A DNA stretch of 64,000 bases from the NCBI RefSeq assembly GCF_025398175.1, contig NZ_CP099734.1, positions 2,356,001-2,420,000 of the forward strand, read 5' to 3'. The stretch is from Photobacterium sp. TY1-4. GTDB taxonomy: Bacteria > Pseudomonadota > Gammaproteobacteria > Enterobacterales > Vibrionaceae. The position numbers were made by a program, and so were the translations under genes. A model generated the notes under the pieces. It did no database searches. It worked only from the letters and a program-made list of their open reading frames with translations, and was not told the origin of the DNA. Below are positions 2,219 to 41,693 of the stretch, piece by piece (positions within the stretch are counted from its first letter, which is position 1; each line of letters begins with the position of its first letter).

Positions 2219-2900
2219 TTTATCCCTTCGCATTGGGCTGACCCCGATCTCAAACTGTAACTATTTGCCCGAGGCACAAGAGCAGCTCGGAGTCGTGATG
2301 GATCATCACTGGTTAACTCCGGAAGGTTACGGACTATTAGTCGCTGCCGGGTACCGTCGCAGCGGCAGCGCCATCTACCGTCCGATGTGCCGCCTGTGTC
2401 AGGCGTGCACGCCTCTGCGGATTGACTGCCGGAACTTTCAGCCCTCCAAGAGCCAGAAGCGCCAGCTAAGCCAGATGAAGCAATTGCACTGGGAGTTCAA
2501 AGAGACCCTGGATGAAAACTGGTTTGTCCTGTACGAGAAATACATCCGGCTGCGCCATGCCGGCGGGAGTATGTATCCGGCCAATAAAGAGCAGTTTTTT
2601 GATTTTTGTACGGCTGCCTGGATGGATACACTTTTTTTGCACGTATATGAGCAGGATCAACTGGTCGCCGTGGCCGTCACCGATATGTTTGATGATGCCC
2701 TCAGCGCGGTGTACAGCTTCTTTGACCCGGACGCCACGCTGTCTCTGGGCACCTTGTGTGTGCTATACCAAATTCAGTACGCCCGCCAAACCGGTCGGGC
2801 TTGGCTGTACCCCGGTTATCAAATTGATGCTTGTAACGCCATGAACTATAAAGTGCGGTTTAAGCCATATCAAAAATTACGCGATGGGCACTGGGAATAG
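2202..2900 (+). CDS. bpt: Aspartate/glutamate leucyltransferase Bpt
   Basis: 232 residues. Leucyl-tRNA-protein transferase of the ATE1-like family that adds Leu to N-terminal Asp or Glu, converting secondary destabilising residues to ClpS substrates. The N-terminal cysteine cluster (C19, the CRLC pair and nearby C) and the GYRRSGSAIYRPMC block are characteristic, as are the C-terminal blocks YPGYQIDACNAMNYK and RFKPYQKL. The start lies inside aat (17-base overlap). E. coli lacks Bpt, while many Vibrionaceae carry aat-bpt in tandem. Confidence 0.94.
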   Translation: MTSYRNLSLRIGLTPISNCNYLPEAQEQLGVVMDHHWLTPEGYGLLVAAGYRRSGSAIYRPMCRLCQACTPLRIDCRNFQPSKSQKRQLSQMKQLHWEFKETLDENWFVLYEKYIRLRHAGGSMYPANKEQFFDFCTAAWMDTLFLHVYEQDQLVAVAVTDMFDDALSAVYSFFDPDATLSLGTLCVLYQIQYARQTGRAWLYPGYQIDACNAMNYKVRFKPYQKLRDGHWE

Positions 2901-2950
2901 CCCATCGCCATCACGATACGCGATTTATGGGAGAAAATACCGAACAGTAG

Positions 2951-2979
2951 CTGACAAAGCCCGGAAGCAAGGGTAAAAT
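2951..2979 (+). promoter_or_regulatory. infA sigma70-type promoter
   Basis: CTGACA at 2951-2956, a 17-bp spacer and TAAAAT at 2974-2979, located 84 bp before infA. A second weaker TTTACA-like element follows at about 2992. Confidence 0.6.
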
Positions 2980-3053
2980 TGCGGCCTAAACTTTACACTT
3001 AAACAGTTTCAAGGCATCATCCGGCCCGATCAGAAGCATGGCTGGTAGCCTAA

Positions 3054-3281
<228 letters not shown>

Positions 3282-29069: not shown

Positions 29070-30059
29070 TTAACCACCAATCGATGCAAGGTGAGGTGTC
29101 ATGCCGGTATTGCCGTCATCCAGAAAATGACTGACCGCTTTTTCCTGCAAGCCACGTTGAATCCGCTCGATCAGCGCTGCCTGCTGATGGTCATGACTCA
29201 GCAGATCACGCAGATCGACCCCATGATCACCAAACAGGCACAGGTGCAGTTTACCGAGAGCCGAGATCCGCAGTCGGTTACAGCTCTGACAAAAATCTTT
29301 CTCATACGGCATGATCAGACCCACTTCCCCCAGGTAATCCGGGTGGAAGAAAACCTGGGCGGGGCCATCATTGTTGGCCCGGGGCTTGAGCAGCCAGCCA
29401 TTGGCAATCAGATGATTTCGGATACTCACGCCGGAGACATGGTGGCGCTGGAACAGACCGTCCATTTCACCGGTTTGCATCAGCTCGATAAACCGGAGCT
29501 GAATCGGTCGGTCTTTAATCCAGTTCAGGAATTGCGGCAGTTGTTGTGAATTAAGGTCTTTCAGCAAAACCGTGTTGATTTTGACCTGCTCAAATCCGGC
29601 CGAAAAGGCTGCATCAATGCCATCCATGACCTGATGGAACAAGTTCTCGCCAGTGATCTGGAAGAACATCTTCGGATCCAGGCTATCAACACTGACATTC
29701 AAGTGCGTCAAGCCGGCCTGACGCCATTCCCGGACATGCTTGGCCATTCGGTAACCATTGGTGGTGGTCGCCACTTTGCGGATCCCGGGCTGCTCGGCAA
29801 CCGTCCGGATAATGTCGGTGAAGTCCCGTCGCAATGACGGCTCCCCTCCGGTGATCCGGACTTTAGTGGTACCGCAAGACGCAAACGCACCGGTCACCCG
29901 GCGAATTTCATCCAGGGTTAGAAAAGAAGGTTTTTTTCTCTCTGCCGGTCGATAGCCGTCAGGGAGGCAGTAGGTACATTTGAAATTACAAACGTCCGTC
30001 ACTGAAAGCCGCAAGTAGTAAAACTTGCGATGGTATTGATCTTCAAATTGATTCGCCAC
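29070..30059 (-). CDS. moaA: GTP 3',8-cyclase MoaA
   Basis: 329 residues. Radical SAM enzyme starting molybdenum cofactor synthesis from GTP. The SAM cluster cysteines are C24, C28 and C31 (VCNFKCTYC); the C-terminal cluster cysteines are in [18 protein letters not shown], and the tail ends in GG. The frame is open to 30227, but that extension reads through the riboswitch. The GTG at 30059 ([19 protein letters not shown]), placed just after GGAAAGGTG, matches the E. coli N terminus and is the start. First gene of moaACDE. Confidence 0.96.
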
Positions 30060-30389
30060 GAAACACCTTTCCAAATACGGGAGGCCGATGCATTTCTTTA
30101 TCGACCCTGGTGACATAATGTCACGGCTCACGTCACCTATTGCGTCGTTCACGAGGCAACTTAGTGAATAGAGCTCGGAGTTATGGCTGCTTTGTTGAGA
30201 GTCTTTGTTGAGAGTGCGACGATTCACACGACCAACAACAAAGCGGCATAGTCTTTATAACTTATCAGAGAGTTTGACCTAATGACAATTCTCTAAAAAA
30301 GATGTCGGGTATTCTACCGATCGTCAGAAATCGCGACAATACTACTAAAGAGAAGTTATGCAAATTTTCTTACAGTTTGTGGGGGAATT
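30060..30389. other. Divergent region moaA / small gene
   Basis: 330 bases holding the Moco riboswitch (30064-30165) and its upstream leader on the minus strand. TTTGTTGAGAGT occurs twice (30191-30202 and 30204-30215). The rest should contain divergent promoters, not individually identified. Confidence 0.5.
30064..30165 (-). promoter_or_regulatory. Molybdenum cofactor (Moco) riboswitch
   Basis: The minus-strand moaA leader shows the landmarks of the E. coli moaA Moco RNA in the same order: GCCTC (from 30157), GCCGTGACA, CACCAGGG, a GGTCGAT/ATCGGCC stem around AAAGAAATGC, then CCTCCCGTAT and TGGAAAGGTG. The last segment (30064-30072) is also the moaA ribosome site, so ligand binding can block initiation. 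Recognised by remembered similarity, not by a covariance search. Confidence 0.85.
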
Positions 30390-34497: not shown

Positions 34498-34509
34498 ATT
34501 ATCTATTTC

Positions 34510-34610
34510 GACTCTTTCCTGAGAGTCAACCTAGCCAACTGACGTTGTTTGTGGAATTTTTTCACTTAAACAATGATGCCAACCGAAGTAATTGCGGTTG
34601 GCTTTTTTTT
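34510..34610 (+). ncRNA. qrr1: Qrr quorum-regulatory small RNA (qrr1 position)
   Basis: About 101 nt. Hfq-dependent sRNA that base-pairs with the mRNAs of the LuxR/HapR master regulator, luxO and others. The first stem-loop is GACTC...GAGTC (34510-34527). The invariant Qrr core CCTAGCCAACTGACGTTGTT lies at 34530-34549. The 3' end is the stem GCCAACCG/CGGTTGGC (34578-34585/34595-34602) with eight T. Its location beside luxO is that of qrr1 in other Vibrionaceae. Driven by the sigma54 promoter at 34483-34497 and hence by phospho-LuxO. Confidence 0.95.
34578..34610 (+). terminator. qrr terminator
   Basis: GCCAACCG / CGGTTGGC with a 9-nt loop and a T8 tract; ends 31 bases before the convergent uvrB stop. 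Confidence 0.93.
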
Positions 34611-34640
34611 ATCTACAGTTCACAGGCAGCGTCGAGCAAG

Positions 34641-37424: not shown

Positions 37425-37453
37425 TTGACAGCGGAAAGACAGATGGCTAGTAT
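37425..37453 (+). promoter_or_regulatory. tRNA-Asn promoter
   Basis: Consensus TTGACA (37425-37430), 17-bp spacer and TAGTAT (37448-37453), followed by a GC-rich GGCGC discriminator typical of stringently controlled stable-RNA promoters. Confidence 0.85.
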
Positions 37454-37469: not shown

Positions 37470-37560
37470 TCCCCCTTAGTTCAGTCGGTAGAACGGCGGA
37501 CTGTTAATCCGTATGTCGCTGGCGGGAGGCCGCCCCGTCCAAGTCCAGCAGGGGGAGCCA
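37470..37560 (+). tRNA. tRNA-Asn (GTT) carrying a 15-nt insertion in the T arm
   Basis: Acceptor TCCCCCT/AGGGGGA (37470-37476/37550-37556), D arm GTTC/GAAC (37479-37494), anticodon arm GCGGA-CTGTTAA-TCCGT (37496-37512; anticodon GTT at 37503-37505), variable ATGTC, T stem GCTGG/CCAGC (37518-37522/37545-37549), discriminator G and encoded CCA (37558-37560). Between T-stem strands there are 22 bases instead of 7: a self-complementary CGGG-AGGCCGC-CCCG (37523-37537) plus a loop TCCAAGT in which the invariant T55 is C. Promoter and terminator are intact. It may be an unusual tRNA, one needing processing, or a decayed copy. Confidence 0.85.
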
Positions 37561-37572
37561 CTTTCAAGAAAG

Positions 37573-37597
37573 CCTCGTCAACAGACGAGGTTTTTTT
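37573..37597 (+). terminator. tRNA-Asn terminator
   Basis: CCTCGTC (37573-37579), loop AACA, GACGAGG (37584-37590) and T7. Confidence 0.92.
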
Positions 37598-37684
37598 ATA
37601 CCCGTTGTTCACGCTATGCGCGAAATGTCGCCAAGCCAAATACGTATCTCTTGCTCGTGACGTTTCACTGCCCAGACATACAAA

Positions 37685-38430: not shown

Positions 38431-39012
38431 ATGAGTGGAATTTTAATTGCTGTCATTGCGATCGCAGTGCTTGCTGCGATTTTTGGGTTAGTCCTGGGCT
38501 TTGCTTCCATTCGCTTCAAAGTCGAAGCCGATCCGATCGTCGAACAAATTGATGCCATCCTGCCGCAAACCCAGTGTGGCCAATGTGGCTACCCGGGTTG
38601 CCGCCCGTACGCCGAAGCCATTGCCAATGGCGACGACATCAACAAGTGTCCGCCGGGTGGCCAACAGGCCATTGAAAAACTGGCCGACCTGATGGGCGTT
38701 GACGTTCAGGAGTCTGCTCACGATGAAGAGAAAGGCCTGAAAAAAGTTGCCTTTATTCACGAAGATATGTGTATCGGCTGTACCAAGTGTATTCAGGCCT
38801 GTCCGGTCGACGCCATTGTCGGCGGCACCAAGGCACTGCATACCGTCATTAAAGACGAATGTACCGGCTGCGACCTGTGTGTTGCACCTTGCCCAACCGA
38901 CTGTATTGAGATGGTGCCGGTTGAATCGACGCCCGAAAGCTGGAAGTGGGATCTCGACCAAATCCCGGTGGTCAATATTCCAACGGATGCAACAGTCAAC
39001 AAGGTAAGGTAA
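38431..39012 (+). CDS. rsxB: RsxB, ferredoxin-like subunit B
   Basis: 193 residues. Membrane-anchored (N-terminal helix ~5-25) iron-sulfur protein. A 4Fe-4S domain CGQCGYPGC...CPPGG is followed by two ferredoxin clusters, [12 protein letters not shown] and [12 protein letters not shown]. It takes electrons from the RsxC flavin and passes them on. Two bases separate its stop from rsxC. Confidence 0.97.
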
Positions 39013-39014
39013 CC

Positions 39015-41693
39015 ATGCTGTCAATTATCGAACAAATTAAACAAGGCCAGCTATGGGACTTTCCGGGGGGCATTCATCCGCCGGAGCAGAAAACCCTGTC
39101 GAATCGCACCCCAATTGCCGAAGCCAAGCTGCCACCCAAACTGGTTCTGCCTTTAAAGCAACACCTGGGCGCAATCGGTGATGTGCTGGTCTCGGTCGGT
39201 GACACCGTCAAAAAAGGTCAGATGCTGACCCATACCGATGTCGCGTTGAGCGTGCCGATCCACGCCCCGACTTCCGGCACCATAGTCGCCATTGAACAAC
39301 ACACCATCGCCCACCCTTCCGGCCTCTCCGATCGCTGTATTGTGATTAAACCCGATGGTGAAGAGACCTGGCTGGCCAGAACACCGGTCGCCAATTACCA
39401 CGATGCCGCCCCGGCGGATCTGATTGATCACATCCGCCTGCACGGCATTGCCGGAATGGGCGGCGCGGGCTTCCCTGCCGGTCGTAAACTCCAGAGCGGC
39501 TTGGGCAAAACCGATATTCTGATCATCAATGCTGCCGAGTGTGAGCCTTATATTACTGCCGATGATCGCCTGATGCAGGACTGTGCCCACGAAGTGATCG
39601 AGGGGATCCGGATCCTGCAGCATATTCTGCAACCTAAGCTCACCGTGATTGGCATTGAGGATAACAAGCCAGAAGCCATCACCGCGCTGCAACACCAGCT
39701 CACCGTGCATGACCAAATCGTGATCCGGGTGATCCCGACCAAGTACCCCTCGGGCGGCGAAAAGCAGTTGATCAAAGTGCTGACCGGAAAAGAAGTCCCC
39801 TCCAAAGGTATCCCGGCAGACATTGGTATTATGATGCATAACGTGGGGACCACCCATGCGATCAAGCGCGCCGTCATTGATGGCGAGCCCCTGATCCAAC
39901 GCGTCGTCACGGTCACCGGGCAAACCGTCAAGCAACCGGGCAATACCTGGGCGCTTTTGGGGACGCCAGTACAATTTCTGCTTGAACGCTTTGGTTTTCA
40001 GGCCGATAAAAAACTGTCGCGTGTGATTATGGGCGGCCCGATGATGGGCTTCACCCTGCCACACACCGCCGTGCCGGTGACCAAAATCTCCAACTGTATC
40101 TTGGCGCCGACACGCAAAGAAATCTCACCGGCAAATCAGGAAATGGCTTGTATTCGCTGCACGGCTTGTGCAGAAGCCTGCCCGGTTTCGCTGCTACCGC
40201 AGCAACTGCAATGGTATGCCAAGGATGAAGATTTCGAAAAATGTGAAGAATACAACCTGTTTGACTGTATTGAGTGCGGGGCATGTGCGTACGTCTGCCC
40301 GAGTGAAATTCCGCTGGTGCACTATTACCGCCAGGCCAAAGCTGAAATACGTCACCGCAAACAAGATGAAATCAATGCCGAGCGCGCGAAACTGCGCTTT
40401 GAAGCGAAGAACGCCCGTTTAGAGCGTGATAAGCAAGAGCGCGAGAATCGCTTTAAGAAAGCGGCCGACGACCGACGCAAAGAAATGAAATCCACGGGCG
40501 GTGATGATGCCGTCGCAGCGGCCATTGCCCGAGTGAAGGCCAAACAAGCAGCTGCTGCGACTGATGCAACCGCAGAGAAAAAGCCAGCGGTTGCAGCAGC
40601 CATTGCTCGTGCCAAAGCCAAGCAAGCCGCAGCCCAGGCCGCGCAATCCGACAACGCCGAAGCGTTACCGGATAACACCGAAATGGCCAAGTTGCGTGAA
40701 GAGCGCAAACGTCAGGCCCGTGAGCGAAAAGCCGCGAAGCTGGCAACGGAGGACGTAGCCCCGGATTCAGAGACGCCAGCAAGCTCCGGCGATGCCAAGA
40801 AAGACGCCGTCGCTGCTGCGATTGCCCGAGCTAAAGCCCGCAAAGCTGCCCAGCAAAGCGATACAGACCAAACTGAGGAGTCCGTCGAGGATCCGAAGAA
40901 AGCCGCCGTTGCCGCTGCCATTGCCCGCGCCAAAGCGCGCAAAGCAGCCCAACAGGCTGAGTCTGCAACGCCTGAAAAAGCTGAAGCTGAACAGACAGAT
41001 GCCAAGCCAGCCGACGCGCCAGCAGAAGATCCGAAAAAAGCCGCTGTGGCCGCTGCCATTGCACGCGCAAAAGCCCGCAAAGCAGCCCAACAGGCTGAAT
41101 CTGCAACGCCTGAAACAGCTGACACAGAGCAGGCAGATGCCGAGCCAGCCGACGCGCCTGCCGAAGATCCGAAAAAAGCCGCCGTTGCTGCTGCCATTGC
41201 CCGCGCGAAAGCCCGTAAAGCGGCCCAACAGGCTGAATCTGTAGCGTCAGAACAAGCTGACACTGAGCAGGCGGATACCGAGCCAGCCGACGCGCCTGCA
41301 GAAGATCCGAAGAAAGCCGCTGTTGCTGCTGCCATTGCCCGCGCAAAAGCCCGCAAAGCAGCCCAACAGGCTGAATCTGTAGCGTCAGAACAAGCTGACA
41401 CTGAGCAAGCAGATGCCGAGCCAGCTAACGCGCCTGTTGAGGATCCGAAGAAAGCCGCGGTTGCTGCTGCCATTGCCCGCGCAAAAGCCCGCAAAGCAGC
41501 CCAACAGGCTGAATCTGCTGCACCAGAAAAAGCTGACACAGAGCAGGCAGATGCCGAGGCTGCCGACGCGCCTGTTGAGGATCCGAAGAAAGCCGCCGTT
41601 GCGGCCGCCATTGCCCGTGCCAAAGCACGAAAAGCGGCCAGAGAAGCCGAACAGGCCGGAAAAGATGCACCACAGAATCATGAGGAAAACTAA
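39015..41693 (+). CDS. rsxC: RsxC, NADH-binding subunit C with a long repeat tail
   Basis: 892 residues. Peripheral NADH/FMN subunit (NqrF/complex I 51-kDa-like). Glycine-rich [15 protein letters not shown] binds the nucleotide, and two 4Fe-4S motifs occur at [12 protein letters not shown] and [12 protein letters not shown]. The frame is open to 38946; the ATG at 39015 ([19 protein letters not shown]) is the family start. After ~residue 480 comes a charged, Ala/Lys-rich tail with [10 protein letters not shown] cores, including five 46-residue repeats and a partial sixth (40890 onward). The core is of usual size; the tail length is variable in this family. Confidence 0.96.
40890..41639 (+). 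repeat. 138-bp in-frame tandem repeats in rsxC
   Basis: Units begin at 40890, 41028, 41166, 41304, 41442 and 41580 (partial), each exactly 138 bp and starting [20 protein letters not shown]. The helix-forming 20-residue part is invariant; the acidic linker ([21 protein letters not shown] and variants) varies. Confidence 0.97.

Follow-up and report, generated by a model that had tools for sequence, protein, structure and literature searches.

A tRNA-Asn gene with an over-long T arm in Photobacterium sp. TY1-4, probably a hybrid with a tRNA tail unit

Introduction

Behind tyrV of Escherichia coli MG1655, the 19 nt that end tRNA-Tyr are repeated three times with a spacing of 178 bp, and one more tRNA-Tyr tail lies between tyrT and tyrV, in a region annotated as rttR and tpr. 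Each of these tail copies is preceded by GC-rich sequence that does not belong to a tRNA. Giroux, Beaudet and Cedergren reportedly described, in 1988, a tRNA-Pro/His cluster of Photobacterium phosphoreum that holds repeated tRNA-Pro genes together with tRNA-like pseudogenes. A different kind of system is found in Bacillus cereus, whose pseudo-tRNA termed tRNA-Other reportedly has no role in translation, while its deletion changed cell-wall and resistance phenotypes (PMC3399842).

We examine here a window of 64,000 nt of Photobacterium sp. TY1-4 (G000 in our genome set), in which a tRNA-Asn gene with a strongly enlarged T loop lies between uvrB and rsxABC. In this genome and in its relatives, truncated copies of the tRNA-Asn and tRNA-Pro tails, which carry the same T-loop module as this gene, sit behind tRNA genes. 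The units of G064, G003, G004 and G000 share the layout of tyrT/tyrV (rttR, tpr), namely tail copies behind a tRNA gene, although the unit is about 119 bp long in G064 and 178 bp long in E. coli. Judged from their sequences, the tail units appear to be the same kind of arrangement as tyrT/rttR, and the window gene would be a fusion product of such an arrangement, not a tandem array. In the E. coli stretch, in contrast, the tRNAs are intact, and a fusion between a full-length tRNA and a unit is not seen. As for tRNA-Other, it is likewise a tRNA-like RNA outside translation, but it comes from a different phylum and has a different origin, and no T-arm extension is named in the accessible part of the report (PMC3399842).

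The window gene and its signals

The features of the locus, in window coordinates, are the following:

37425..37453, plus strand: sigma-70-type promoter of the window gene, TTGACA-17 nt-TAGTAT, 10 of 12 consensus bases (promoter scan)
37470..37560, plus strand: putative hybrid tRNA-Asn(GTT) with encoded CCA, 91 nt (read from the sequence; ARAGORN)
37470..37522, plus strand: 5' part as in normal tRNA-Asn, with the 5' strand of the acceptor, the D arm, the anticodon arm and the 5' strand of the T stem (identical to the normal copies)
37513..37522, plus strand: ATGTCGCTGG, proposed junction, a 10-base homology of tRNA-Asn and some tail units (sequence shown directly)
37523-37537, plus strand: extra 15-mer CGGGAGGCCGCCCCG (read from the sequence)
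37523..37540, plus strand: module CGGGAGGCCGCCCCGTCC, which takes the place of the first part of the T loop (15 added bases and T55C; sequence matches)
37538-37544, plus strand: TCCAAGT after the 15-mer (read from the sequence)
37541..37560, plus strand: remaining T loop, 3' strand of the T stem, 3' strand of the acceptor and GCCA, attributed to a tail unit
37573..37597, plus strand: intrinsic terminator CCTCGTC-AACA-GACGAGG-T7, as in tail units (read from the sequence)
37624..37631, plus strand: AATGTCGC, apparently left over from the beginning of another tail unit (read from the sequence)

The original prediction, which described a 91-nt tRNA-Asn with a 15-mer at 37523-37537 and a T55C change, was borne out on each of these points when the sequence was read again, and ARAGORN agrees with it, since it reports a tRNA-Asn(gtt) of 91 nt. 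Across the acceptor, D, anticodon and T stems, 21 of the 21 pairs are standard, with one G-U, so that the gene shows the paired stems, the GTT anticodon and the CCA of a functional tRNA-Asn. What it is missing is the 7-nt T loop with T54-T55-C56 that makes the contact with the D loop; the loop found instead has 22 nt and carries T55C. An Infernal-type check, which had been proposed along with the prediction, shows that the Rfam tRNA model still accepts the locus, at 31.5 bits for a cut-off of 29, against 71.4 bits for the normal tRNA-Asn copies.

Once the 15-mer is set aside, a single base (T55C) separates the window gene from each of six normal tRNA-Asn genes, all alike, that the genome carries in two operons at 455-466 kb of C1 (locus L031); six of these six copies match the window gene except for the 15-mer and T55C. 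This number of six is a minimum, as 150 of the 308 tRNA candidates were scored and the count covers the retrieved stretches. The 15-mer had also been credited with a self-complementary hairpin. The whole 91-nt RNA folds with a z of -0.79, and 35 of 200 shuffles are equally stable or more so. The internal 4-bp hairpin of the 15-mer is thus weak evidence, being unremarkable by folding energy.

The consensus promoter that had been proposed upstream of the gene holds. The promoter scan gives 3 promoter-like sites for the region, where shuffles give 1.2, and identical promoter hexamers lie upstream of the intact tRNA-Asn in the relative G004. The T7 terminator, also part of the original prediction, is confirmed by reading, but the scan reports the stem of 37573-37597 on the minus strand only.

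The module in tRNA tail units

The module of 37523..37540 recurs in tRNA-Asn and tRNA-Pro tails, beyond what chance would give. The 18-mer CGGRAGGCCGCCCCGTCC, searched with up to 2 mismatches, has 25 sites in 9 of the 52 genus genomes, 12 of which are exact, while a reversed control gives 9 matches. By reading of their contexts, 22 of the 25 sites occupy the T-loop position in tails of tRNA-Asn or tRNA-Pro or in tRNA-like sequences. Eight sites, including that of the window, belong to tRNA-Asn and 14 to tRNA-Pro; the remaining 3 are apparently unrelated (G023, G073 and the second replicon of the own genome, G000). The tRNA-Pro sites are tails, except for two cases in G004 that are nearly complete tRNA-Pro-like sequences. 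Since the contexts are those of both Asn and Pro, two different tRNAs have copies in which the same module opens the T loop. The search with GCTGGCGGGAGGCCGCCCCGTCCAAGTCCAGC (up to 3 mismatches) gives six sites in 2 of 40 genomes, the own one and G004, and none for the reversed control; judged by context, the site of the window is the only one of the six in a full-length tRNA.

It had been suggested that the 15-mer be looked for elsewhere, and both the own genome and G004 indeed have tails that contain it, with the same T55C. As a whole, the window module is found unchanged in the own-genome tail at C1:455289-455306 and in the G004 tails at C1:420483 and 431509. At the junction, ATGTCGCTGG is common to tRNA-Asn, to the own unit at 455 kb and to the rsx units of G004. 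Many of the module-bearing tails are followed by a terminator, and some stand in tandem. The own tRNA clusters also hold tail copies with other T-loop inserts, derived from Phe, Met and Gly.

Several loci met along the way can be described separately. Two loci of the own genome (L131 and L137, around 765 kb and 48 kb of C1) contain tRNA-Pro clusters with tandem Pro tails about 122 bp apart that carry the module of the window, with tRNA-Pro-like fragments between the genes. The Pro pseudogenes of the 1988 P. phosphoreum report may be the same as the Pro tails found here. In G004, two loci (L160 and L162, around 722 and 724 kb of C1) hold tRNA-Pro-like sequences that are almost complete, have an altered anticodon arm and carry a CGGAAGGCCGCCCCGTTC module in the T loop; these are possibly the Pro counterpart of the window hybrid. 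Behind the tRNA-Asn operon at 455 kb (L031, minus strand, about 434-511) lies a tail unit with 6-base AAGTCC repeats in the T-loop region. Directly behind the last tail unit of G004 in L032, an apparent group II intron end (about 2400-3200) and a reverse-transcriptase-like reading frame on the minus strand were noticed by eye.

The rsxA locus in relatives

The surroundings of rsxA were read in 30 of the 52 genus genomes. A tRNA-Asn lies near rsxA in four of these 30 loci: the window (G000), G064, G003 and G046, the last of which has two normal copies in the opposite orientation. In G004, also among the 30, the tRNA lies beyond the retrieved flank and was read separately. G064, G003 and G004 all have an intact 76-nt tRNA-Asn followed by tail units with a T-loop insert. 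There are two such units upstream of rsxA in G064, with a period of 119 bp and the second one truncated, a single degenerate and truncated unit in G003, and two units in G004. The modules at the rsx loci are related to that of the window but not identical to it: each G004 unit has one mismatch in 32 nt, the G003 module has two in 18 nt, and G064 is more divergent.

Between the end of the tRNA and rsxA there are 287 nt in the window, compared with 405 nt in G064 and 290 nt in G003. The 3' flank of the window gene (37561-37643) matches the G004 operon unit at 56 of 65 positions, the own 455-kb operon at 46 of 54 and the G003 rsx locus at 48 of 63, and it fits an operon-type unit better than the rsx-locus flanks of G003, G064 or G004.

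A probable hybrid of tRNA-Asn and a tail unit

The window gene probably combines tRNA-Asn with a tail unit, as a hybrid produced either by the deletion of one unit or by gene conversion. Relatives show the earlier state of the locus, an intact tRNA-Asn with its promoter and terminator, followed by tail units of about 119 bp, each made of a copy of the tRNA 3' end (from the T-stem region to the CCA), a GC-rich T-loop module and a terminator. Recombination would then have swapped the normal 3' half of the window tRNA for such a tail. In the simplest case, the ATGTCGCTGG of the tRNA would have recombined with the ATGTCGCTGG of the first unit, and the repeat period between them would have been lost; alternatively, gene conversion by a unit from another tRNA-Asn locus would give the same product. 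We infer the recombination event itself; what can be seen is that relatives have units at the orthologous locus, that other tails carry the same module and that a leftover unit start persists downstream of the gene.

The spacing fits the loss of one period, because 405 - 119 = 286, against the 287 nt observed, but it fits a conversion in a G003-like array equally well, because G003 has 290 nt with one truncated unit. The spacing was therefore dropped as proof of a local deletion. The 3' flank (56 of 65) and the identity of the module to operon-type units make us lean towards an exchange with another tRNA-Asn locus.

The RNA of the hybrid would be transcribed and perhaps trimmed, and the loss of the G18-psi55 and G19-C56 contacts would make it inert in translation. 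The D-loop/T-loop contacts of the tRNA structure are covered in a review (PMC7609411), and the window RNA is predicted to be unusable in translation because it is devoid of them. Such a loss would be tolerable, because at least six normal tRNA-Asn genes remain. The event would be young, or the gene recently homogenised, because the window gene is otherwise identical to the six of six normal copies.

Taken as a whole, the gene is most likely a recent hybrid pseudo-tRNA, translationally inert, with a layout like that of the E. coli tyrT/rttR tail repeats, as far as comparison of sequences can tell. Among the options of the original prediction, that of a fresh pseudogene is the one best supported. 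That prediction had also named several normal tRNA-Asn copies, in combination with a silent locus, as evidence that would speak against it, and the list of other tRNA-Asn genes holds at least six normal ones. Two findings are counterpoints to a hybrid pseudogene: the 5' half and the promoter are free of decay, as those of a functional RNA would be, and the donor unit is not seen at the window locus.

This suggests a route to non-canonical bacterial tRNA genes, in which recombination occurs with tail copies that already bear a disrupted T loop.

T-extended tRNA-like genes in Vibrionaceae

With an exact pattern, a full-length T-extended tRNA-Asn is found in 1 of the 52 genus genomes, which is the window itself. 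A broader pattern, run over about 85,000 species with one genome each, gave 20 matches, of which 20 of 20 have normal T arms (normal tRNAs with a chance match downstream), in a scan that had no positive control, from whose results the own gene is absent and which may omit the own genome or a very near one. The tRNA-like genes with over-long T arms are nevertheless a recurring, little-described set in these marine Vibrionaceae; among the titles listed by our searches of the open-licence literature, none deals with T-arm-extended tRNA genes of the family.

The own genome contains 91-nt genes that have a tRNA-Gly body, a T arm with 15 additional bases and the anticodons GTT, ATT or GTC. The exact pattern of these T-extended tRNA-Gly genes occurs in 12 of the 52 genus genomes; with a covariance model, the genomes that have such genes number at least 17 of the 52, and with the covariance model and a wider pattern combined, 24 of the 52. 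At the level of the family, the wider pattern matches 50 of 296 genomes in 2 of 13 genera (20 genomes of the genus and 30 of one other), with no match in the 11 other genera sampled and none in 246 of the 296 genomes. An order-level pattern (295 genomes) gave matches in Vibrionaceae only, but it spells the acceptor of the Vibrionaceae tRNA-Gly and is also matched by normal tRNA-Gly; being fitted in this manner, it led us to make no claim of restriction to one family.

These genes have a T arm 14-16 nt longer than normal, end in CCA, lie within tRNA operons and carry an insert of variable sequence. The stretch from CACG to CGTG measures 25-27 nt in 50 of the 50 sequences compared, for an allowed range of 18-34, against 11 in normal tRNA-Gly. 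A conserved hairpin as the function of the extended T arms is unsupported: folding of the inserts (50 sequences with 200 shuffles each) gave a mean z of -0.16, and 9 of 50 reached z <= -1. With the exact pattern, the GCC anticodon is kept in 16 of 16 copies outside the own genome and lost in 5 of 5 copies inside it; with the wider pattern, anticodons besides GCC are also met in other genomes, e.g., GAC in G150 and GTC in G539.

The first 51 nt of the T-extended copies bear a mean of 3.5 changes, against 0.87 for normal tRNA-Gly. Three or more changes in this body are found in 14 of 30 T-extended copies (9 of 23 outside the own genome) and in 2 of 15 normal ones (a tRNA-Gly(CCC) is among these two), in a comparison drawn from loci of 17 of the 52 genomes and in which the search pattern itself bounds the decay. 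Copies that are not translated would be expected to decay in this manner, which speaks for the hybrid pseudo-tRNA reading of the window gene. The acceptor stem is fully paired in 25 of 30 distinct T-extended copies.

T-extended tRNA-Gly genes are the last of their operon in several cases, for example in G062, G069 and G048, and lie inside operons in G016, G023, G075 and G000, so that an operon-end rule was dropped. In G016, G023 and G075, the T-extended copy replaces the normal tRNA-Gly between tRNA-Cys and tRNA-Leu. In the own genome, a tRNA-Gly/Met cluster (L035 and L136, C1 about 3288000-3292000) contains chimeric genes, e.g., with a Gly 5' part and a Met 3' part, as well as several T-extended copies of Gly type in which the D arm is altered and the anticodon is GTT or ATT.

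Both the window gene and the T-extended tRNA-Gly genes are tRNA-like, have a T arm 14-16 nt longer and end in CCA. The window gene is, however, not one of them, as it has an Asn body, an unrelated insert and a distribution of one genome against two genera; the two are analogous only. The Gly set looks like the outcome of tail modules recombining with normal tRNA genes, as for the window. The drift of the anticodon, the changes in the body, the patchy presence and the absence of a conserved fold argue for long-lived pseudogene arrays. By analogy with tRNA-Other, the steady insert length and the persistence in two genera may leave room for a non-translational function.

It had been held that bacterial tRNAs essentially never tolerate such an insertion. 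This has to be nuanced, as T arms 14-16 nt longer are recurrent in Vibrionaceae, but these genes do look untranslated. T-extended tRNA-like genes that recur in one bacterial family can be miscounted as real tRNAs, and ARAGORN mislabels the Gly-bodied copies as Asn or Asp.

Other explanations

A possible, if rather unlikely, proposal is that there is a standing class of T-extended tRNA-like RNAs in the tRNA operons of Vibrionaceae, which would be transcribed and act outside translation, and to which recombination would add members, the window gene being the youngest. This class would comprise Gly forms in two genera and the Asn, Pro, Phe and Met tail forms of the own genome, with the acceptor stem and the CCA kept.

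It is similarly unlikely, in our opinion, that the T-extended tRNA-like genes (Gly in two genera, Asn here) encode a working RNA outside translation, acting as a decoy, a regulator or an amino-acid donor, whose altered T arm would keep it off EF-Tu and the ribosome. The occurrence of T-extended tRNA-Gly in 50 of 296 family genomes and 2 of 13 genera would fit such a role, as would the 25-27 nt stretch that stays steady in 50 of 50 sequences even though 18-34 was searched, the acceptor stem fully paired in 25 of 30 copies and the intact promoter of the window gene. Against it, the inserts fold no better than shuffles (mean z of -0.16), the anticodon drifts (GCC lost in 5 of 5 own copies and kept in 16 of 16 others with the exact pattern, while the wider pattern also meets copies of other genomes that differ), three or more body changes affect 14 of 30 copies, and the presence is patchy, with 246 of the 296 genomes giving no exact-pattern match.

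We find it highly improbable that the window gene arose by a direct 15-nt insertion and a point change in a normal tRNA-Asn, independently of the tail units. The rest of the tRNA is identical to the normal copies, as such an event would leave it, but tails in the own genome and in G004 carry the identical 15-mer together with T55C, and the gene is followed by a leftover unit start. Of the 15-nt insertion put forward originally, the extra bases are thus real while the mechanism is not retained, the 3' half resembling a pre-existing tail unit that holds both the 15-mer and T55C.

Just as little probability is given to the tails and the hybrid being attachment-site scars of an integrase-borne element that uses the tRNA-Asn 3' end. 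The 3' ends of tRNAs are common targets of integrases, and the tail copies span the T arm to the CCA. The gene lies, however, between uvrB and rsxABC, where reading of the translations of 34-41 kb revealed no integrase-like product; the tails of G064 and G004 follow each other at about 120 bp and have nothing but a terminator in between, and the same module is present in tRNA-Pro tails.

Finally, as the module lies inside a tRNA gene, it could recall an intron that is spliced out of a working tRNA, or it could come from an error of assembly, but we give this almost no credence. An extra sequence of only 15 nt is far below the size of group I introns, and the archaeal splicing endonuclease is, to our knowledge, absent from bacteria; the insertion that must be removed, also considered at the outset, is unsupported. 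The presence of the module at further loci and in further genomes argues against an artefact.

Neighbourhood of the gene

On one side, the window gene is flanked by luxO and uvrB; the genes rsxA, rsxB and rsxC follow on the opposite side. A Qrr quorum-sensing RNA (window 34509-34611, plus strand, RF00378, 80.8 bits) adjoins luxO, which is on the minus strand (NF041946). A molybdenum cofactor riboswitch is found at 30048-30192 of the window on the minus strand (RF01055, 98.2 bits). RsxC (window 38946-41693, plus strand) carries a long Ala/Lys-rich repeat extension at its C-terminal end.
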